A stretch of DNA of 44,197 nucleotides from Bacteroidaceae bacterium (GTDB lineage Bacteria; Bacteroidota; Bacteroidia; Bacteroidales; Bacteroidaceae), in contig JAFOCV010000058.1 in the NCBI GenBank assembly GCA_017381015.1, positions 1 to 44,197 of the forward strand, read 5' to 3'. Under the pieces are notes generated by a model that saw only the letters and a program-made list of their open reading frames with translations, searched no databases and was not told the DNA's origin. The position numbers were made by a program, and so were the translations under genes. This document shows positions 11,940 through 20,997 of the stretch, piece after piece. Each line of letters starts with the position of its first letter. Within the stretch, counting starts at the first letter, position 1.

Positions 11940-12917
11940 ATGAAAAGTTTTCTCAATGTACAGGACCTTGGATGTCTTAGTCAGGCACTTGCCGAGGCAA
12001 GAGAGATTAAGGAGGACCGTTTCAAATATGTAGAGTTGGGACGCAACAAGACCGCTCTGCTAGTATTCTTCAATAACAGTTTGCGCACTCGTCTTTCTAC
12101 TCAGAAGGCGGCTCAGAATCTGGGCATGAATGTCATTGTGCTGGATGTCAATGCTGGTGCGTGGAAGTTGGAAACCGAGCGCGGAGTGATTATGGATGGC
12201 GATAAGAGCGAGCATTTGCTCGAAGCTATTCCCGTTATGAGCAGTTATTGTGATATCATTGGTATTCGTTCTTTTGCAGGTCTTACCGACCGTGAATATG
12301 ACTATGCCGAGACCGTTTACAATCAGTTTGTAAAGTATTCAGGCAAGCCCATCTTTGCAATGGAAACAGCTACGGTGCATCCTCTTCAGGCCTTTGCCGA
12401 CCTTATCACCATAGAGGAGCACAAGAAGGTGGCTCGTCCGAAGGTTGTGCTCACATGGGCTCCTCATCCTCGTGCTCTTCCACAGGCAGTGCCCAATAGC
12501 TTTGCCGAGTGGATGAATGCTGCTGATGTGGACTTCGTCATCACTCATCCCGAGGGCTACGAATTGGACCCCGCTTTTGCTGGTAATGCACGTGTGGAGT
12601 ACGACCAGATGAAGGCCTTCGAAGGTGCAGATTTTATTTATGCAAAGAACTGGTCATGTCCAGGTGTTACTCGTCCAGAGGATTATGGCAAGATACTTAC
12701 TGATTACCATGAGATGCTTGATTGGACCGTGTCTGACCGCCAAATGGCCGTGACCAACAACGCCCATTTCATGCATTGCTTGCCCGTACGCCGTGGTATG
12801 ATTGTTACCGACGAGGTTATCGAGGCTCCCACATCGCTAGTAATCCCCGAGGCTGCTAATCGCGAGATTTCTGCCACCGTGGTACTAAAGCGCATCCTTG
12901 AAGCAATAGAGAAGTAG
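11940..12917 (+). CDS. argF': N-succinylornithine (acylornithine) carbamoyltransferase
   Basis: 325 aa. It carries the carbamoyl-phosphate motif as NNSLRTRLST (45-54) where ordinary OTCases have S-T-R-T, an ATVHPLQAFADL segment (about 144-155) and HCLPVRRGM near the C-terminus. By eye it is very close to the Bacteroides fragilis enzyme shown to use N-succinyl-L-ornithine. The residue that separates succinyl- from acetylornithine enzymes (Pro90 in B. fragilis, Glu92 in the Xanthomonas acetyl enzyme, as I recall) is Ser90 here (DGDKSEH, 86-92). Substituting Ser, Pro or Ala in the Xanthomonas enzyme was reported to allow the succinyl substrate, so succinyl specificity is likely. Last gene of the operon. 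Confidence 0.92.
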   Translation: MKSFLNVQDLGCLSQALAEAREIKEDRFKYVELGRNKTALLVFFNNSLRTRLSTQKAAQNLGMNVIVLDVNAGAWKLETERGVIMDGDKSEHLLEAIPVMSSYCDIIGIRSFAGLTDREYDYAETVYNQFVKYSGKPIFAMETATVHPLQAFADLITIEEHKKVARPKVVLTWAPHPRALPQAVPNSFAEWMNAADVDFVITHPEGYELDPAFAGNARVEYDQMKAFEGADFIYAKNWSCPGVTRPEDYGKILTDYHEMLDWTVSDRQMAVTNNAHFMHCLPVRRGMIVTDEVIEAPTSLVIPEAANREISATVVLKRILEAIEK

Positions 12918-12946
12918 GCCTGAGCCTATACTTTACGAATAAAACG

Positions 12947-12990
12947 AATCGACTTTTGCCAAAATAATGAGCAAGAGTCGATTTGTCTTT
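12947..12990. terminator. Bidirectional terminator between argF' and licD-type gene
   Basis: AATCGACT-T-TTGC (12947-12959) pairs with GCAA-G-AGTCGATT (12971-12983), one mismatch, around an 11-nt loop. T-rich DNA follows on the plus side (TTGTCTTTTC) and on the minus side (CGTTTTATTC). It separates two convergent genes. Confidence 0.8.
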
Positions 12991-12991
12991 T

Positions 12992-13798
12992 CTATAGGAA
13001 CTCCAAATGAGCGCAATGTGTGCTGATGCTTTCCTCTGGCGGGAACTGCATGTAATTGCCATACATGAGCCGAAGCATGTGGTCATAGTTGCAAGGCACG
13101 GGGAAATCGATGCCTTCGAAGGATAGGGTGGACAATGGGAATATGTCCTTCTCATAGCGAGGATTGTGGTATGGTATACCCATTCCGCTGGTAATAGTTT
13201 TAGTGAATGATAGGGCACAAAGTAGGCGTAGGATAGGGAAGATGAAAAGACGATTGAGGTGGAAGATATGCATGACCTTCTTTATCGCCTTTTGGTCGTC
13301 AGTGCTGGTGCGCCATACTTTATACATATGTCCCACGGTCTTTTCTGTCACCTTGTGCAAACCGATTGGTTGGTGCTCCAGAGGGAAGATGTCAATATAT
13401 ATGCCTTTCTCCTTCCATAAGCGGTCATAGTTGTTGCCCTCAGCCATGATTGAGCGTCTGTCACGAATCTTGGCATAATAGAAGAAATACGTCGGGTCAG
13501 TTTCATGGTTTTGCAGAGCCATGGTTTCGGGCAATTCATTGGGGAGAACCTTCATCAGACGATTATAATCCTTGCGCATCATCTCTATGTCCAGGTCATC
13601 ATCCCAGGGAATGAATCCACCATGTCTGGCAGCTCCTATCAGAGTACCACTGCTCAACCAATATGGTATGTCGTACTTCTTGCAGATACGGTCTATTTCC
13701 TTCAGAATGTCAAGCATACGCAATTGCTGACGACGCAAAAGTGACCCCTCGGGATTGAATTTCTCTCTCAACTCGTTTTGTTTCTCAGTAGATATCAT
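12992..13798 (-). CDS. LicD family phosphotransferase
   Basis: 268 aa with the LicD nucleotidyltransferase-fold signature: YWLSSGTLIGAARHGGFIPW followed by DDDLDIEMM (about 44-72), where the Asp residues are the presumed metal-binding site. LicD proteins move phosphocholine or a similar phospho-group from a CDP-activated donor to a sugar on a surface glycan. There is no signal peptide; a cytoplasmic location is expected. No choline kinase gene is next to it. A LicC-like cytidylyltransferase domain is encoded 2.5-5 kb away (16312-18141), so the donor may be another CDP-alkanolamine. It has its own clear promoter and terminator, so it is a single-gene unit. Confidence 0.88.
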   Translation of the reverse strand: MISTEKQNELREKFNPEGSLLRRQQLRMLDILKEIDRICKKYDIPYWLSSGTLIGAARHGGFIPWDDDLDIEMMRKDYNRLMKVLPNELPETMALQNHETDPTYFFYYAKIRDRRSIMAEGNNYDRLWKEKGIYIDIFPLEHQPIGLHKVTEKTVGHMYKVWRTSTDDQKAIKKVMHIFHLNRLFIFPILRLLCALSFTKTITSGMGIPYHNPRYEKDIFPLSTLSFEGIDFPVPCNYDHMLRLMYGNYMQFPPEESISTHCAHLEFL

Positions 13799-13820
13799 AC
13801 CATTATCTTATTTTAGGCCA

Positions 13821-13851
13821 CAAATTTAGGTATAAAACGAGGAATGACAAA
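13821..13851 (-). promoter_or_regulatory. Promoter of the LicD gene
   Basis: On the minus strand TTTG (13851-13848), 19-nt spacer, then TAAATTTG (13828-13821), a full match to the Bacteroidota -33/-7 pattern, about 23 nt before the ATG. Confidence 0.75.
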
Positions 13852-13862
13852 ATAAATTTTAG

Positions 13863-13870
13863 TAATTTTG
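13863..13870 (+). promoter_or_regulatory. Possible -7 box for the acyltransferase gene
   Basis: TAATTTTG fits TAnnTTTG, 28 nt before the ATG at 13899. No convincing TTTG lies about 20 nt upstream, so support is partial. It sits back to back with the licD promoter. Confidence 0.4.
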
Positions 13871-13898
13871 TACTGCCTTACATACAGAAATTATATTT

Positions 13899-15005
13899 AT
13901 GGAAGAGATAAGTACCATTCCTCAGCCACCCAAGGAGAGGATGCAGTGGCTTGATGCCATGCGAGGATTTACCATGATATTGGTGGTAGCATTTCATGTA
14001 GCACAAATGGGTTTTGACCAATCGGTAAAGCAATCCTCTTCGATGTCTTTCCTGATGCTATTCCGTATGCCTTTGTTCTTTTTTGTGAGTGGTTTTCTGG
14101 CCTACAAGGCTTCTATTAAATGGGATTCAGAGACGCTATTCACGCTTCTTGGCAAGAAGATAAGAGTGCAGTTGCTTCCCACGATAGTTTTCCTCTTATT
14201 CTCGTGCGTAGCCCTTTATCCCAAGTTTTGGCCAGCCTTGGAGAATTGCCTTTCCTCTGCCACCAAAGGCGGATATTGGTTTACCTTGGTATTGCTATAT
14301 ATGTTTGTGGTGTACTATCTCTTCTGCTATATGGAGTCGTGGTTGAAGAAACAGAAATGCCCATCGTGGTTACCCATCGTGGTGCTTTTTGTGCTTTCAC
14401 TGGCGTTGTACGAGACATGCTATTTGCCCAAACTCTGTTGGTGGGCAGATGGGCGCAGAGGTAAGATTCCCAGTCAGATATTGAACTACACATCACTTAT
14501 TCAGTTCATGAAGTACTTCCCCTTCTTTGTTTTTGGCAACATTGTCAGGAGGTATTGGCAGAAGGCTCAGCGATTGATGGATTCCCAATGGTTCTTTCCC
14601 ACGCTGGTGGTGCTGGTAGTCTTCTGCACCATGGATATCCTCAAGTGGCACACCCTTCGTATGGCATGGGCAAACATACCATCCACTCTCTCCAAGTTCA
14701 TCCTTCTGACGATGGTGTTCATGTATTTCCGCCATTATGCTCAGTATTTCACTCAGTCAACCATCATCGGTAGCAGTTTGCAATACATAGGGCGTCGCAC
14801 ATTGGATATCTATCTCATTCACTTCCTCTTTCTGCCCAATCTCCCAGCCGTGGGAACATTCTTCACCAGCAACAAGCACAATTTTGTTATAGACTCCAGT
14901 CTTTCCATCCTCATCGGCTTGCTAGTGATAGCTTTCTGCATCATCACCAGCAATCTCTTGCGCATAAGCCCATTCTTCCGCAAATATCTATTTGGCAAGG
15001 GATAA
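13899..15005 (+). CDS. Acyltransferase family 3 integral membrane protein
   Basis: 368 aa with about ten hydrophobic segments. The N-terminus has WLDAMRGFTMILVVAFHV (about 18-35), with the conserved R and H of acyltransferase-3 proteins, followed by FRMPLFFFVSGFL (about 53-65). Such proteins O-acylate (often acetylate) sugars on exopolysaccharide, lipopolysaccharide or peptidoglycan, taking the acyl group across the inner membrane. Divergently transcribed from the LicD gene, which also fits surface-glycan modification. Actual substrate unknown. Confidence 0.88.
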   Translation: MEEISTIPQPPKERMQWLDAMRGFTMILVVAFHVAQMGFDQSVKQSSSMSFLMLFRMPLFFFVSGFLAYKASIKWDSETLFTLLGKKIRVQLLPTIVFLLFSCVALYPKFWPALENCLSSATKGGYWFTLVLLYMFVVYYLFCYMESWLKKQKCPSWLPIVVLFVLSLALYETCYLPKLCWWADGRRGKIPSQILNYTSLIQFMKYFPFFVFGNIVRRYWQKAQRLMDSQWFFPTLVVLVVFCTMDILKWHTLRMAWANIPSTLSKFILLTMVFMYFRHYAQYFTQSTIIGSSLQYIGRRTLDIYLIHFLFLPNLPAVGTFFTSNKHNFVIDSSLSILIGLLVIAFCIITSNLLRISPFFRKYLFGKG

Positions 15006-15033
15006 AAAGCTTGTTTATATCATTTTAAAGACA

Positions 15034-15191
15034 TTTTTTAAAGAATCAATGACGTGCGTATAAAAAATGCCCTTAAAATTTAAAGGTACGACGTTGATTC
15101 TATAAATTTCAGAAAAATTTTTAAAGAATTGCCTACGTAAGTATAAAAAATGACCTCAAAATTTAAAGGCACGTTGTTGATTCTATAAATT
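15034..15191. repeat. 83-bp tandem duplication downstream of the acyltransferase
   Basis: Two copies, about 15034-15108 and 15117-15191, share blocks such as TTTTTAAAGAAT, GTATAAAAAATG, AAAATTTAAAGG and TTGATTCTATAAATT at a constant 83-bp offset. Each copy is itself an imperfect palindrome (GAATCAA near the left, TTGATTC near the right in copy 1). Copy 2 has drifted in its left arm. Confidence 0.8.
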
Positions 15192-15219
15192 AGGAAATAA
15201 AATCTTCTCCCCACAAACA

Positions 15220-15254
15220 GCGCCAACTTACCATATTTTTAGGTAGGTTGGCGC
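15220..15254. terminator. Strong hairpin between convergent genes
   Basis: GCGCCAAC-T-TACC (15220-15232) pairs with GGTA-G-GTTGGCGC (15242-15254) around a 9-nt A/T loop. It lies 26 nt from the end of the opine-dehydrogenase-like gene and serves as a likely terminator for both directions, though the T-run is short. Confidence 0.65.
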
Positions 15255-15279
15255 CAGTTGTTGTTTTGTGATTTGTTTC

Positions 15280-16284
15280 CTAAATCTTACTCATACCCCA
15301 TTGGTATACCATATCTATCTTCGGAGTGGGAATTCCTTTCTCCTTTGCCAATTGCCAGATGAAGTGTAGACCATACGGGAAGTCCTCAGTAAAGTATCTG
15401 CTGGCAAAGTTGGGTATCCAACCTTGAGCAGTTTGCTTCATGGGAGAAGTAATACCCTTGAATCCCTGAATGGATGAGAGTTTCTGAGCTAATGAGCGTG
15501 CATCATGGCTCTCGTAGTATTCCAGTATTCTAGGCAAATAATTGGGTTTTACGGGCAATACTTCCAATAGACGGAAGAATTCCTCGTCCATGTCTATTAA
15601 TAGTTGTGCTGCTTCCTCTGTCCATTCCTCATAGAAGAGTATCATGCGTGGGAAAGTACGTCCTTCATTGCTAGCACCAAACATAGTGTACAGGCGCGAT
15701 GTGTGGAGCAAGGGATTGCTGTTGGTGAGTGTAGCTTCGTAGAAATTATTCAGCAGGGAGACAGGTGTGTTGAATAATTTCTCGATGAGTAGGCGGAAGT
15801 CTTCCTTCTCGTCAGTACGCTCAACGGCTATGTTCAGGTTGCTCTTGTAGCCAAGAAGATTGGCACTCTGACCATATTCTCGTGTGCGACAGATGAAGGG
15901 GACACGCTGAAAGCCCCATAGCGGTACATCTTCATTCAGTATTTCCATTGCATTGAAGAAGAAGCCCGTGGAGGAGAAAACAGAGCCAACGAAAGTAGTT
16001 GATTTTACGTAAGGTTTGATAAGTTGCAATTGTTGCTTAATGGCAAAGCCAGGCAAGCAAAGCAATATAATGTTGGCTTGCGGTATGACATCCTCGGGAT
16101 TGCTGCTGATGGTGTGGATATGTCCGTGGATAATTGTTTGTTCGGGTGTATGCACCTCAATGTCGTTCTTCCATAGTTGGGGACGTTGTGTTAGCATACT
16201 GACACGCACATCGGCATTAGCACCCAAGTAACCAGCAATCACATGTCCCAGCGAACCACCTCCGCAGATACAGAAATTAATCAT
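15280..16284 (-). CDS. Octopine/opine dehydrogenase-like protein
   Basis: 334 aa. The N-terminal dinucleotide-binding fold starts CICGGGSLGHVIAGYLGAN (about 5-23), and the region after residue 180 (NPLLHTSRLYTMFG, about 188-201) resembles the C-terminal domain of NAD(P)-dependent octopine/nopaline dehydrogenases. These reductively condense an amino group with a 2-oxo acid. It follows the nucleotidyltransferase/PLP fusion by 27 nt in the same direction and is the last gene of the operon starting with the hexosaminidase. The substrate is unknown; an amine produced by the fused PLP enzyme is one possibility. It could also be a ketopantoate-reductase-like enzyme, but the C-terminus argues for the opine family. 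Confidence 0.75.
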   Translation of the reverse strand: MINFCICGGGSLGHVIAGYLGANADVRVSMLTQRPQLWKNDIEVHTPEQTIIHGHIHTISSNPEDVIPQANIILLCLPGFAIKQQLQLIKPYVKSTTFVGSVFSSTGFFFNAMEILNEDVPLWGFQRVPFICRTREYGQSANLLGYKSNLNIAVERTDEKEDFRLLIEKLFNTPVSLLNNFYEATLTNSNPLLHTSRLYTMFGASNEGRTFPRMILFYEEWTEEAAQLLIDMDEEFFRLLEVLPVKPNYLPRILEYYESHDARSLAQKLSSIQGFKGITSPMKQTAQGWIPNFASRYFTEDFPYGLHFIWQLAKEKGIPTPKIDMVYQWGMSKI

Positions 16285-16311
16285 CGTTTCTTGTATAAGG
16301 ATTTTGGAAAT

Positions 16312-18141
16312 TTATTTGTTTGCGATACCTTCTTCCAAGTGTCGAAGACCCTCTATCAACTTAGCATTGTCCTTGTGGTCGCGCACGGCTATACGCATGT
16401 ATTGCTTGCCATCGAAGCCGCCCTTGCCAGAGCAATCGCGCATGAGGATATTGTGCTCCTTGAGCATACGGAGTACAAGGGTATTTGCGGTAAAGGGAGG
16501 CAATACCTCCACCAGGAAGTAATTGGCTTGTGAGGGAATTACACGAAGGAAACTGATGGTGCGAAGCTGGCTTTCAAAGTTGTCACGCTCCTGGATAAAT
16601 CTGTCGCACGCCTTCTTGTAGTCCTTCTCGTACTTGGTGTATATCTGCATGAAGAACTCGCAGAAGGAATTGAGATTCCAGATGCTCACCATCTTCTTTA
16701 TTCTTGAGATAATATCCACGTCTGCCGAACAAAGTATACCTAGTCGGATGCCAGGCACACCATAGCTCTTGCTGATGGATTTCATCACCAGCATAGAGGG
16801 GTATTGCTCCAGGATATTGTCGTGAAGCAGAGTGTTTTCTTCCCAACCGACGCTGAAATCCACGAAACTCTCGTCCACAATCAAGCGTATGCCTTGCTCC
16901 TTACACCATTGTGCCAGGGTGAGCACGTCTTGCATGGGTATGAAGTTGCCTGAAGGATTGTCGGGATTGATGAGCAAAAGATTATCGGCATGGTTCTTGC
17001 CAAAGAAATCCATCAGGTCCTGAGCAGAGTATCTGAATTCGTTGTTCTGTGGAATGAAGGTGACGAGCGAATCCTTGTCTCTACGATTAGGATATTCCTC
17101 AAAGGTGGGACGCACCACACCCATTGTGCCTGGAAGCAGTTCCATCAGTGCCTTAATCAATTCGGCTGCACCATTGCCAGGTACGATGTAATCTTCCTTC
17201 ACTCCCCAGCACTTGCTGGCAAGTAGTGTGTTCACCTTCATGCCCGAGGGGTATTCGGCAATGAGGGTGCGGAAATTGGCCTGCATCTCATCAATAATCT
17301 TAGATGAGCGGAAGTATGGATTAACCAGATAGCAGAAGTCAAGCATCTGAGGGAAGCGCCAATAGCCACCAAAGCGTCCATAATACTTGCGCATGATGTC
17401 CTTCTCCTCGGCAAAGAGAGCCTCTGCTATGTCCAGATCCTGCTTGTCGTCTATCTCATACCATTTTTCATTGGTGATGGGCAGGGCCTTGAGGTCTTTG
17501 CTATTCAGGAAGGTGATGATGCGAAGCACGTTCTCGTAGTACTCGTTGTTGCCCACCGCCTTGGAGTACGCCTCCAGGAAGGGGATATACTTCGTACGGC
17601 TAAATTCCTTGGAGAACTTGTATATATTGATGGTCTTGTAATATTTGTCCACCTCGTCGTACTGGAATGCAGCCTTAGGCACAAAGTTCACGATATTCTG
17701 TTCGTCATCAATCTGCACCATTGTACCATCCATCCATGTCTCGTATTTAGCCACCAGAGCCAGGTTGGGATATGGATTTTCTATGATGAGAGAGAATAGT
17801 TGGTCATCGAAAATCAAATCACTCTCGATGAGCAATGTGTCATCCTCTTGCATCTGCTCTTTGGCAAGGGCAAGGGAGTATATGTTGTTTGTCTTGTCAT
17901 AGATGGGATTGTTGATAAACTCAATGGGAGTGCCATTGAATGAAGTGCCCACGTGGTCCATCAGTTTTTGTCCCTCGTATCCCACCACGATAACAATGCG
18001 ATTGAGTTTTTGCTTGGATAATTGTCCTAATACGCGGTCGATGAGTCGCACACCATTGACCTCTACCATGCACTTGGTGTTTTCCTTGGTAAACTCGCCC
18101 AAGCGCTTGCCCATACCGGCTGCTAATATTATTGCTTGCAT
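16312..18141 (-). CDS. Bifunctional LicC-like cytidylyltransferase / CobD-HisC-like PLP enzyme
   Basis: 609 aa, two domains. Residues 1-245: nucleotidyltransferase with LAAGMGKRLG (6-15), the LicC/PntC-type NNIYSL (85-90), metal Asp in ESDLIF (D108) and EIDDKQDLDIAE (229-240). Residues about 250-609: class I/II PLP enzyme with PGNGAAELIKAL (321-332), INPDNPSGN (391-399), VDESFVDF (D423), the Schiff-base lysine in SISKSYGVPGIRLG (K458) and RDCSGKGGF...YMRIAVR near the end. This end resembles CobD (threonine-phosphate decarboxylase) as much as HisC. The fusion may make a phospho-alkanolamine and activate it as a CDP derivative. Known cytidylyltransferase fusions for aminoethylphosphonate use a different (class V) transaminase, and no PEP mutase is present. 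It is 10 nt behind mnmA. Domain calls are firm; the product is inferred. Confidence 0.82.
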   Translation of the reverse strand: MQAIILAAGMGKRLGEFTKENTKCMVEVNGVRLIDRVLGQLSKQKLNRIVIVVGYEGQKLMDHVGTSFNGTPIEFINNPIYDKTNNIYSLALAKEQMQEDDTLLIESDLIFDDQLFSLIIENPYPNLALVAKYETWMDGTMVQIDDEQNIVNFVPKAAFQYDEVDKYYKTINIYKFSKEFSRTKYIPFLEAYSKAVGNNEYYENVLRIITFLNSKDLKALPITNEKWYEIDDKQDLDIAEALFAEEKDIMRKYYGRFGGYWRFPQMLDFCYLVNPYFRSSKIIDEMQANFRTLIAEYPSGMKVNTLLASKCWGVKEDYIVPGNGAAELIKALMELLPGTMGVVRPTFEEYPNRRDKDSLVTFIPQNNEFRYSAQDLMDFFGKNHADNLLLINPDNPSGNFIPMQDVLTLAQWCKEQGIRLIVDESFVDFSVGWEENTLLHDNILEQYPSMLVMKSISKSYGVPGIRLGILCSADVDIISRIKKMVSIWNLNSFCEFFMQIYTKYEKDYKKACDRFIQERDNFESQLRTISFLRVIPSQANYFLVEVLPPFTANTLVLRMLKEHNILMRDCSGKGGFDGKQYMRIAVRDHKDNAKLIEGLRHLEEGIANK

Positions 18142-18151
18142 TATCTTTGGA

Positions 18152-19276
18152 TTATTCTACAGTGTTTTGTTCAGATTTAGGTGTATTGTTGCTTGCATCT
18201 ATGCGAGGCAAACTAATCTCTCCGCTACCATAGCAGATGGTTTTCTGACGGTCATAAATACAACCAAATTGTCCAGGAGCAATACCCTGAATGGGTAGTT
18301 CAGAACGTACCAGATAACCTTCGCCATCGCACTCTATCGTACCATCCATGAAATGGTCTACGTGGCGTACCTTGAAAGAGATTTCCATCGGAGCATCCCC
18401 CTCCTTGATGGGCAGGGGTTCGGTGATAGCGTGAAAGTCTGCCAGGCGGAATACCTTGCCATACTGCAACTGTGTGTCCCATCCGTGAGCAACGAAGACC
18501 ACATTCTTTCTGACATTCTTCTTTACCACAAACCATGGCCCTCCGCTCAAGCCTAAGCCCTTGCGCTGACCGATGGTGTGAAACCAGAAACCTTTGTGAG
18601 TGCCCACGATGCGGTTTGTTTCAATGTCTATGACCTTGCCCTCTTGCTCGCCAAGGAATTTGCGCAGAAAATCATTATAGTTTATCTTTCCCAGGAAGCA
18701 TATACCCTGACTGTCCTTGCGCTTTGCCTGAGGCAGATGAGCCTCCTGTGCTATGCGGCGCACATCCTCCTTCATCAAATCGCCCAGGGGGAGTATCATA
18801 CGAGATATCTCCACACCTGATAGTTGGGCAAGAAAGTCAGTTTGGTCCTTCACCGGGTCTCGTGCCACACCTAGCCACACCTTGCCGTTACGTTCTATGA
18901 TGCGTCCGTAATGACCGGTGGCAATCTTGTCGTACTTGTATCCCACTTTCTCTTCAAAGGCACCAAACTTGATGAGTCTGTTGCACATTACATCCGGGTT
19001 GGGTGTAAGGCCAGCCTTTACGCGCTCTATGGCATAACCCACCACGCGCTCCCAATACTCCTTCTGCAGGTCAATGACTTCCAGTTTCAAACCATATTTG
19101 CGAGCCGTAGCCATAGACAGCTCTATGTCCTCTTCGGCCGTGCACGACGAGTCCTCGCCCTCCATACCTATCTTGATGTAATACAGGTCGGGCTTATATC
19201 CCTGTTCCACCAATAGATGAGTGACTACAGCGCTATCCACGCCGCCACTAATCAATACAGCTACCTTTTCCTTCAC
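18152..19276 (-). CDS. mnmA: tRNA-specific 2-thiouridylase MnmA family
   Basis: 374 aa. It has the ATP-pyrophosphatase P-loop [10 protein letters not shown] (8-17), the first catalytic Cys in [13 protein letters not shown], the second in QGICFLGK, and the C-terminal beta-barrel. MnmA places sulfur on U34 of tRNAs for Glu, Gln and Lys. Bacteroidales often carry more than one MnmA-like gene, so this could be one of several paralogues. The start is GTG at 19276, within a GTGA overlap with the hexosaminidase stop, so translation is coupled. It is unexpectedly embedded in an operon of glycan-related genes. Confidence 0.88.
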
Positions 19277-20997
19277 TTGGCTATGAAATGTTTGCCATAC
19301 AATCTGCCTGTCAGGTCGAGAAGCAGAGTATCAGCGGTAAAACGTGTACGTAGGCTCTCAAAATCCTTCTTTTCCTCGGGTGTCCATGCAGCTTCAGCTA
19401 CAGCCAGGAAGCGGGGGAAAGCAAGATAGTTGAAGTACTGTATGTCGGATACATGCTCTGTCCAAAAGGTAGCTTGCACGCCGATGTAGTGCTTCTTGAT
19501 TGCAGGGTCGGTAACCTTGTCGGGTACGGGCTTGTAGGCATATACCGCAGGCAATTGGTCGCTCTTGCGTCCGGTACCAGCTGCTACGGGTTCGCCCTCT
19601 CCGTCATGCTGCTTGCGATTGATGTAATAGCAACCAGGACCCCATTCTGTGATAACTGCATCCAGACCCATTGATGCGGCAATAGCAGCACCCTGTTGAC
19701 AAGGATTCCAGCAGAAGATAGTTGCACCAGTGCTCTTGATGATATCCAGGTCGGCACCACCAGCTGTTATGCTCTCGTTCCATAGAATCATCTTGCGGCC
19801 ACGAGCTTTGATGTGGTCGTTCATCTGCTTGATGAAGTAACTTTGCAAGGGGCGGAATCTGTGCTTCTCCAGGTTCTTTACCTTACCCTCCTTGATCAGG
19901 TTGGACAGATGCTCTTGACATTGTGCGTTGCTTTCCCAGGCGTTGGTTGGGCATTCATCGCCACCGATGTGTACATATTGTCCGGGGAATACATCCATCA
20001 CCTCGGTTAGTACATCACGTGCAAACTGAACAGCCTTGGGGTCGCCCACGTTCAGTACGTCAGTCCACACACCTCCCTGATATGTCTGTACCTTGTGCTC
20101 GCCCTCGGGGTTGCAACTGAATTCGGGATATGCCGCCAGTGCAGCCATGATATGTCCGGGCATGTCTATTTCGGGAATGACCTCGATGTGCAAGTTGCGT
20201 GCATATTCCACTATCTCCTTGCAATCCTCGTGAGTATAGAAATAAGGACCATAAGGTTTGCCCAACCAATAGTGTTCTCCCTTTACCATATCGGTCATAC
20301 GGCAATCGCTAGCCACAGAACCGATGGTGGTCAGTTTGGGGTACTTCTTCACCTCGAAGCGCCATCCCTGGTCCTCGGTCAGATGCCAGTGGAAATAATT
20401 CATCTTGTAGATAGCCATAGCATCGAGAATCTGCTTTATCTCGTCCACGGTGAAGAAATGACGACCGCAATCCAGCATGAAACCTCTATACCAGAAACGA
20501 GGTTCGTCTTCTATCTCCACGCAAGGCACTTCGGGGCGCTTGGTGGTCTTGTACCAAGGCAATATCTTCTGAGCATCCTTTATGCTGAGGCCAGCCATTA
20601 CGTTGGCAGGCATTATCTTTTTGATGCTTTGAAAGGCATAGAAGAAGCCTCTCGCCGTAGAGGCGCTGATGCTGATACCCTTGGTGGTAACACTGAGCTG
20701 ATACCCTTCGTGAGCAATGCTGGCATCTACAATCATCATAATGTCGGCCTTCTTGCTTTTGGTTAGTTTGCCCTTGCAACCAGTAGCCACCTGAATAGCT
20801 TCGGCAAAGCGCATGGCTTCCTTCTGCAAACTGTCGGCCAACAAGGCAGCACCAATGGTGTATGACTTGGGAAGAGTGTACTGTCCCTCGTTCACAATCA
20901 TTTGTTTGGGCAGAGGAGTAAGGTTAACAAACTGCTTGGCATTCGCACCAATCAATGCGGCAAATACGCATAATAGCATCAATAAAAATCTTTTCAT
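19273..20997 (-). CDS. Beta-N-acetylhexosaminidase, GH20
   Basis: 574 aa from the Met at 20997. The catalytic pair is in [15 protein letters not shown] (Asp347-Glu348), preceded by the substrate-assisted GH20 barrel ([14 protein letters not shown]). An N-terminal domain (residues 25-150) and a Sec signal peptide [20 protein letters not shown] send it to the periplasm or surface, where it removes terminal GlcNAc/GalNAc from host or microbial glycans. A longer frame would start at 21027, but that lies inside the -7 promoter box, so 20997 is chosen. First gene of a four-gene operon. Confidence 0.92.

Follow-up and report, generated by a model that had tools for sequence, protein, structure and literature searches.

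A fused cytidylyltransferase and CobD-like gene in a Bacteroidaceae bacterium: a candidate pathway for phospho-amino-alcohol decoration of surface glycans

FrbH of Streptomyces, an enzyme of FR-900098 biosynthesis, consists of an N-terminal cytidylyltransferase fused to a C-terminal decarboxylase dependent on pyridoxal phosphate (PLP) (PMC8976061, PMC8007912). PntC-AEPT was studied as a route to cell-surface tailoring (PMC6697681). Decarboxylation of serine phosphate to ethanolamine phosphate for capsule assembly is described for Cj1436 (PMC11800397), and for SMUL_1544, which is distantly homologous to CobD, a role in forming ethanolamine phosphate for norpseudo-B12 was proposed (PMC4585668). 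Regarding possible products, N-[(R)-1-carboxyethyl]ethanolamine phosphate is named in a figure legend for Klebsiella capsules and Proteus mirabilis O-polysaccharides (PMC9630907), and O-antigens of Providencia contain (S)-1-carboxyethyl amino acids (PMC10609480). Here we describe a gene set from a Bacteroidaceae bacterium (contig JAFOCV010000058.1, assembly GCA_017381015.1), of which the whole analysed stretch of 44,197 nucleotides is called the window. It comprises a cytidylyltransferase fused to a CobD-like PLP domain, an opine-dehydrogenase-like gene (OPI) and a LicD-family phosphotransferase.

From sequence and gene neighbourhood we consider it rather probable that this gene set encodes a de novo pathway for the decoration of a surface glycan with a phospho-amino alcohol. 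An earlier note on this DNA, made from the sequence alone, had proposed such a pathway, and the comparative evidence appears to support this interpretation. Its domain calls (a LicC/PntC-like cytidylyltransferase with a CobD-like PLP enzyme, an opine-type enzyme, LicD and an acyltransferase) were reproduced with Pfam and NCBIfam, and the coordinates of the open reading frames (ORFs) place OPI 27 nt downstream of the fusion, as it had stated. Among its proposals, alkylation of the amine by the opine-type gene product would gain most, from the exchange of OPI with a second reductase family (OCD) and from a fusion of OPI with LicD. FrbH and OCD do not appear in that note.

The two-domain protein

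The fusion gene is a 609-aa ORF at 16312-18141 on the minus strand. Residues 1-245 (17407..18141, minus strand) form the cytidylyltransferase domain, matched by Pfam NTP_transf_3 (E 2e-13, residues 3-133). Residues 256-609 (16312..17376, minus strand) form the CobD-like PLP domain, putatively a phosphoserine/phosphothreonine decarboxylase, matched by Aminotran_1_2 (E 9e-32, residues 315-598). As in FrbH, a single chain carries NTP_transf_3 followed by a PLP decarboxylase-like domain; the phosphonate context of FrbH with phosphoenolpyruvate (PEP) mutase was not found in this genome. The nearest solved sequences of the N-domain were the CTP:phosphocholine cytidylyltransferase LicC (1jyk, 46 bits) and, with 42 bits, PntC of the PntC-AEPT fusion (6pd1). 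The latter aligns to the fusion over residues 2-201 only, and its class V aminoethylphosphonate (AEP) transaminase domain was not found in the fusion. In an alignment of 18 fusion-family sequences (A1, with the loci L042 and L062 left out), the positions G9, G11, R13, L14, K23 and E106-S-D108 are invariant and include a GxGxRL-type nucleotidyltransferase motif. The same holds for K458 (in KSISKSYGVPG) and R583 of the PLP domain. K458 is presumably the PLP lysine and K23 the catalytic lysine of the nucleotidyltransferase.

For the PLP domain, 6oux was the best solved match with the single sequence as well as with a profile of the 18 members. It is a threonine-phosphate-decarboxylase-like enzyme, which we take to be SMUL_1544 of Sulfurospirillum; Cj1436 is presumably a CobD relative as well. 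The single sequence reached 142 bits with 6oux, 101 with 3ftb, 97 with Salmonella CobD (1lc5) and 69 with HisC (8bj1), and the profile widened the gap (195 bits for 6oux vs 143 for 3ftb and 128 for CobD). The best NCBIfam match of the C-terminal half was CobD (TIGR01140) with 171.1 bits, below the cut-off of 290.55. A cobamide role was rejected, with this cut-off unreached and CobS not found in the own genome (G000; 2.45 Mb, ~85% complete), in which other nucleotide-loop genes were not searched. The earlier note had named a domain acting only as histidinol-phosphate-type aminotransferase as an outcome against its proposal. Such a role is disfavoured, and HisC was rejected as a candidate: the model TIGR01141 gave 135.8 bits, below its cut-off of 276.55, which two other genes of this genome pass (321 and 287 bits).

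Spread of the fusion and exchange of the reductase

Full-length fusions were found in 33 of 200 related genomes, the own genome included, and in 80 loci kept from a genome collection in which at least 554 stretches encode some fusion relative. Hence, the fusion is no assembly artefact. The matches in G007, G022 and G162 were flagged with one stop; their ORFs comprise 603, 602 and 599 aa. The kept collection loci include Prevotella, Bacteroides cellulosilyticus, Hoylesella timonensis, Paludibacteraceae and Fibrobacter, many of them metagenome-assembled genomes (MAGs), and the nearest fusion loci among the matches listed are Bacteroidaceae MAGs from ruminant gut. On the basis of the named loci, the own genome was placed in the Bacteroides/Prevotella group. 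Neighbourhoods were counted for 113 fusion loci, or 105 after 8 were dropped as 97% redundant; short-flank copies of re-fetched loci (L001-L030) and loci without full fusion (L063-L067) were also dropped. Two genomes, G063 with a fusion truncated by the contig end and G170 with two separate genes (L064), were counted among the 167 without full fusion. The counts over the 200 genomes, most of which are drafts, are not corrected for relatedness.

OPI (15280-16284, minus strand; 334-aa ORF), a putative N-(carboxyalkyl) reductase, matches Octopine_DH (E 8e-33, 114 bits, cut-off 30) and, N-terminally, ApbA over cut-off. It aligns with octopine dehydrogenase 3c7a over residues 2-334 (E 5e-31). Immediately after the fusion, 58 of the 105 loci have OPI and 22 have OCD (OCD_Mu_crystall, PF02423); 31 of the 58 OPI ORFs start 4 nt inside the fusion end. 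Bacteroides cellulosilyticus (L145) and L032 have the OCD version. Both families were assigned by own profiles, and Pfam confirmed OCD in all four cases tested. The nearest solved relatives of OCD are pyrroline-2-carboxylate reductase and alanine dehydrogenase, followed with lower scores by mu-crystallin and iminosuccinate reductase. Most of these relatives are imine or ketimine reductases; as in opine dehydrogenases, their chemistry involves the C=N bond of a 2-imino acid. On a tree of the 105 fusions, of a quick kind and with L061 and L062 as long branches that meet, 20 changes between OPI and OCD are required, and starred branches force at least 17 of these. Shuffled labels need 19.5. Because these numbers match, the two unrelated enzymes are, as judged by the tree, swapped almost freely with the fusion retained. 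The gene order in Gloeothece, a cyanobacterium, is fusion, S-adenosylmethionine methyltransferase and LicD; this methyltransferase is a candidate for a third kind of amine-modifying enzyme in the same slot.

The exchange was also examined at genome level, with OPI counted above 200 bits; OPI-like genes of 30% identity (110 bits) in G127, G195 and G198, genomes without fusion, remained uncounted. OPI occurs in 21 of the 200 genomes, all of them with the fusion, and OCD in 12, of which 11 have the fusion. No genome has both. Exactly one reductase was found in 32 of the 33 fusion genomes, compared with 1 of the 167 others; G050 is the fusion genome without either. In G007, G055 and G115 (OPI) and in G022 and G113 (OCD), fusion and reductase are located on different contigs. 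Thus, the co-occurrence does not merely reflect one cassette.

In G033, which has OCD and no fusion, OCD starts 8 nt behind the gene of a 2-aminoethylphosphonate aminotransferase. The operon (L164:1716-7076) encodes a cytidylyltransferase, PEP mutase, phosphonopyruvate decarboxylase, AEP aminotransferase and OCD; PEP mutase, phosphonopyruvate decarboxylase and AEP aminotransferase pass the NCBIfam cut-offs. The sole obvious amine of this operon is aminoethylphosphonate, the C-P twin of ethanolamine phosphate. The position of OCD at the end of an AEP operon argues by analogy that the fusion product would be an aminoethyl (or close) phosphate. For G033 itself, an N-carboxyalkylated aminoethylphosphonate is predicted.

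This operon also bears on a different assignment of the PLP domain. As an aminotransferase, it could form for example serinol phosphate from dihydroxyacetone phosphate, and the fusion would lead to CDP-serinol or a similar CDP-amine, with reductase and LicD acting as proposed. The fold is common to transaminases, HisC models match at 136 bits, and an exchange of OPI and OCD requires only an amine. Transamination to (S)-serinol phosphate is described for Cj1437 of Campylobacter (PMC11800397). We regard an aminotransferase as unlikely, however, with the decarboxylase-like 6oux as nearest solved sequence well above every HisC listed and with a fused precedent, FrbH, which decarboxylates (PMC8976061, PMC8007912). 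Furthermore, the aminoethylphosphonate operon in which OCD of G033 stands last suggests an amine with two carbons.

Formation of an aminoethyl- or aminopropylphosphonate, as in the pathways of FrbH or PntC, would agree with the fusion logic shared by FrbH and PntC-AEPT and with the rhizobial split relatives that adjoin aepX. PEP mutase (TIGR02320), in contrast, passes its cut-off in 6 of the 200 genomes and in none of the 33 with the fusion, and the own genome (~85% complete) gave no match. Since PEP mutase stays below cut-off in all 33 fusion genomes, a phosphonate product is highly improbable.

LicD, glycan context and the proposed steps

The LicD-family gene (12992-13798, minus strand), a putative transferase to the glycan, matches PF04991 over the whole profile (1-227; E 1e-45, 157 bits, cut-off 22.6). 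Between it and OPI lies a membrane acyltransferase gene (13899-15005, plus strand; Acyl_transf_3, E 2e-24), which accompanies the fusion in a subset of loci (homologues in 27 of the 105 neighbourhoods). The earlier note had placed both 2-4 kb away; they are indeed nearby, but at 1.3 kb (acyltransferase) and 2.5 kb (LicD) from the 3' end of the fusion, and LicD lies just outside the interval 13821..18141 which it had delimited. Its expectation that LicD co-occurs with the fusion in related genomes agrees with the data. Of 70 loci flanked by 5 kb or more on each side, 53 have LicD within -7.0 to +5.5 kb of the fusion end, where random placement would give ~1% (1-4 LicD genes per 2-4 Mb genome). 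Of the 33 fusion genomes, 32 contain LicD. It is missing in G162, in which a CDP-alcohol phosphotransferase adjoins OPI. Two loci, L116 and L118, encode OPI and LicD in a single chain (599 and 597 aa, respectively), with both Pfam domains over cut-off; the halves of the L116 protein are 54% identical to OPI and 67% to LicD of the window. Among the 105 neighbourhoods, 31 contain a polysaccharide flippase-type and 23 a glycosyltransferase-type cluster, of which one representative each was named by Pfam, and single loci also hold sugar-nucleotide enzymes.

These neighbours are relevant to the question of the acceptor. The CDP-(N-substituted) ethanolamine could feed a phospholipid or glycolipid, with the product being a lipid head group and no polysaccharide. 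In accordance with this, the sole NCBIfam match of LicD is a diacylglycerol cholinephosphotransferase (77 bits, below the cut-off of 225), and in L062, L064 (there by own profile only), L157, L158, L160, L161 and L162 the fusion or its split counterpart has a CDP-alcohol phosphatidyltransferase gene as neighbour. The flippase-type and glycosyltransferase-type clusters and the sugar-nucleotide enzymes speak for a glycan, and we consider a lipid very unlikely.

For the decoration of a surface glycan, three steps are proposed. In the first step, the two-domain protein would convert O-phosphoserine (possibly O-phosphothreonine) and CTP to CDP-ethanolamine (or CDP-1-amino-2-propanol) without choline uptake; the formation of CDP-ethanolamine from phosphoserine is suggested by analogy with FrbH and Cj1436. 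In the second step, which we infer from the gene exchange and the chemistry of the families, OPI here and OCD elsewhere would condense a 2-oxo acid (pyruvate most likely) with the amine and reduce the imine with NAD(P)H to an N-(carboxyalkyl)ethanolamine phosphate head group. This step may take place before or after activation with CTP. In the third step, LicD would transfer the phospho-head group from CMP to the surface glycan, which may also be a substrate of the acyltransferase. With pyruvate, OPI would give N-(1-carboxyethyl)ethanolamine phosphate. Octopine dehydrogenases set an (R) centre, and N-[(R)-1-carboxyethyl]ethanolamine phosphate is, as we assume, a component of Proteus O14. From the chemistry of the families we would guess the opposite configurations, (R) for OPI and (S) for OCD.

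A broader reading is held only tentatively, at somewhat less than even chance. The genes could form a widespread Bacteroidales cassette for phospho-opine decorations, in which N-carboxyalkylated ethanolamine phosphate, made from phosphoserine and a 2-oxo acid, is attached to surface glycans by LicD. The recurrent swap of the unrelated OPI and OCD (R vs S, or different 2-oxo acids) would then act as a one-gene switch of a surface epitope.

Several observations weigh against the proposed pathway. The similarity of the PLP domain to 6oux is remote, and R569, which aligns with R323 of CobD, varies among R, K and S in the 18 members; therefore, the substrate of this domain cannot be read from the sequence. 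A preference of the N-domain for sugar phosphates had been named by the earlier note as an outcome against its proposal. The top NCBIfam matches of the N-domain are sugar-1-phosphate nucleotidylyltransferases (AglF with 75 and Arch_glmU with 70 bits, cut-offs 400 and 292), but they do not discriminate, because the cytidylyltransferase of the phosphonate operon in G033 yields the same weak matches. No LicD was found near the fusion in 17 of the 70 well-flanked loci. Nearly every genome of the genus contains LicD (all 30 with the fusion and 78 of the 91 without it), so that its link to the fusion rests on adjacency and gene fusion. Neither reductase stands directly behind the fusion in 25 of the 105 loci: 5 have one elsewhere in the locus, 18 have none in the locus and 2 end at a contig edge. 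For 6 of the 18, a genome-wide check gave 5 with a reductase on another contig and none for G050. One locus of the 105, L121, holds OCD together with a divergent OPI. Two fusion genomes, G019 and G117, gave PEP-mutase matches of 19 bits, which cover 48 of 284 positions and are far below cut-off. Finally, the fusion was not seen in any Proteus cluster, the OPI relatives in two chromosome-sized records of P. mirabilis reach 25% identity only, and a term search in the main text of a Proteus O-antigen paper (PMC5560731) gave no hit for LicD, octopine, cytidylyltransferase, ethanolamine or carboxyethyl.

The loci without reductase would suit a decoration with plain phosphoethanolamine, where OPI or OCD has a separate job and rides along in a transferable cassette. 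In six loci (L060, L129, L130, L131, L135 and L141) the fusion is followed immediately by LicD in place of a reductase, with weak LicD matches of 49-51 bits in L129 and L130, and G050 lacks both reductases genome-wide. Nevertheless, 32 of the 33 fusion genomes have exactly one reductase, five of these with the reductase on a separate contig, and two loci encode OPI-LicD fusion proteins. These links exceed hitch-hiking. We consider plain phosphoethanolamine quite unlikely.

Further relatives of the fusion were observed in other contexts. Four contigs filed as viral in IMG/VR (L148-L151) encode full-length fusions, 43-51% identical; L149 also has a phage-type DNA polymerase and L151 a tail sheath, and L149 and L150 contain weak LicD-like ORFs (30-32 bits by own profile). 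Phages may carry the decoration. L155 (NZ_CP084075.1), filed as a Fusobacterium vincentii plasmid and with 2.1 Mb probably a chromosome, has the fusion and LicD, with a formyltransferase-like gene before and a DUF1015 gene after the fusion. In L035 and L037 the genes after the fusion encode an amino-acid permease (assigned by Pfam in L035 and by homology in L037), a second, stand-alone cytidylyltransferase-like protein and then OCD or OPI. Plasmid clusters of Erwinia, Rahnella and Priestia (L157, L158 and L160) contain the fusion, a CDP-alcohol phosphotransferase, ATP-grasp and an MFS transporter. The full-length fused relative of Priestia, 31% identical, adjoins a DXR gene, as in fosmidomycin-type clusters. 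On rhizobial plasmids (L161, L162 and L163) the two domains are encoded by split genes beside aepX, in L161 and L162 also with a CDP-alcohol phosphatidyltransferase, and the Rhizobium sp. 007 plasmid with a split relative has an octopine-dehydrogenase gene and a methyltransferase. For plasmid relatives of OPI in three of 46 records (two Burkholderiales, one Mesorhizobium), no cytidylyltransferase or LicD annotation was found within 5-6 kb. In the window, the fusion gene starts 10 nt behind mnmA (18152-19276, minus strand). Between the convergent acyltransferase and OPI genes, a tandem pair of AT-rich repeats of 83 nt, 75% alike, occupies 15011-15176. A scan of 12900-19400 for promoters and terminators gave counts near those of shuffled sequences.

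Comparison with known systems

No open-access paper was recognised, in the text accessible to us, as describing this gene combination, and no gene assignment or biosynthesis for N-[(R)-1-carboxyethyl]ethanolamine phosphate was found there. The described systems resemble the locus in part. In FrbH as in the window, CTP activation of the phospho group of an amino acid and decarboxylation are combined in a single chain (PMC8976061, PMC8007912), with the activity predicted from sequence for the window. FrbH, however, serves a C-P phosphonate antibiotic, whereas no PEP mutase match was found in the genome of the window, and the neighbours are LicD, an opine-type reductase and, in relatives, glycan genes. 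The FrbH fusion logic would thus extend to an apparent phosphate ester. PntC-AEPT of Treponema denticola (6pd1) likewise fuses a cytidylyltransferase to a PLP enzyme, but this is a class V aminoethylphosphonate transaminase with a phosphonate substrate, and the domain of the window belongs to class I/II and is CobD-like.

With the phosphocholine pathway of LicC and LicD, the proposed pathway would share activation with CTP and transfer to the glycan by LicD. In contrast to the imported choline of that pathway, the amine would come from an amino acid phosphate and would then be N-carboxyalkylated. Cj1436 and SMUL_1544 are described, in the accessible parts of the papers, without a fused cytidylyltransferase, and their ethanolamine phosphate enters an amide or a cobamide (PMC11800397, PMC4585668).

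The genes described here would probably represent a new route to a decoration hitherto known mainly as a chemical structure, and they provide a testable gene set for the head group N-[(R)-1-carboxyethyl]ethanolamine phosphate. In common gut bacteria, a frequently swapped enzyme would convert a plain amine at the surface to an amino acid. The head group expected from OPI and pyruvate is the same N-[(R)-1-carboxyethyl]ethanolamine phosphate that is known as a structure from bacterial polysaccharide (PMC9630907).

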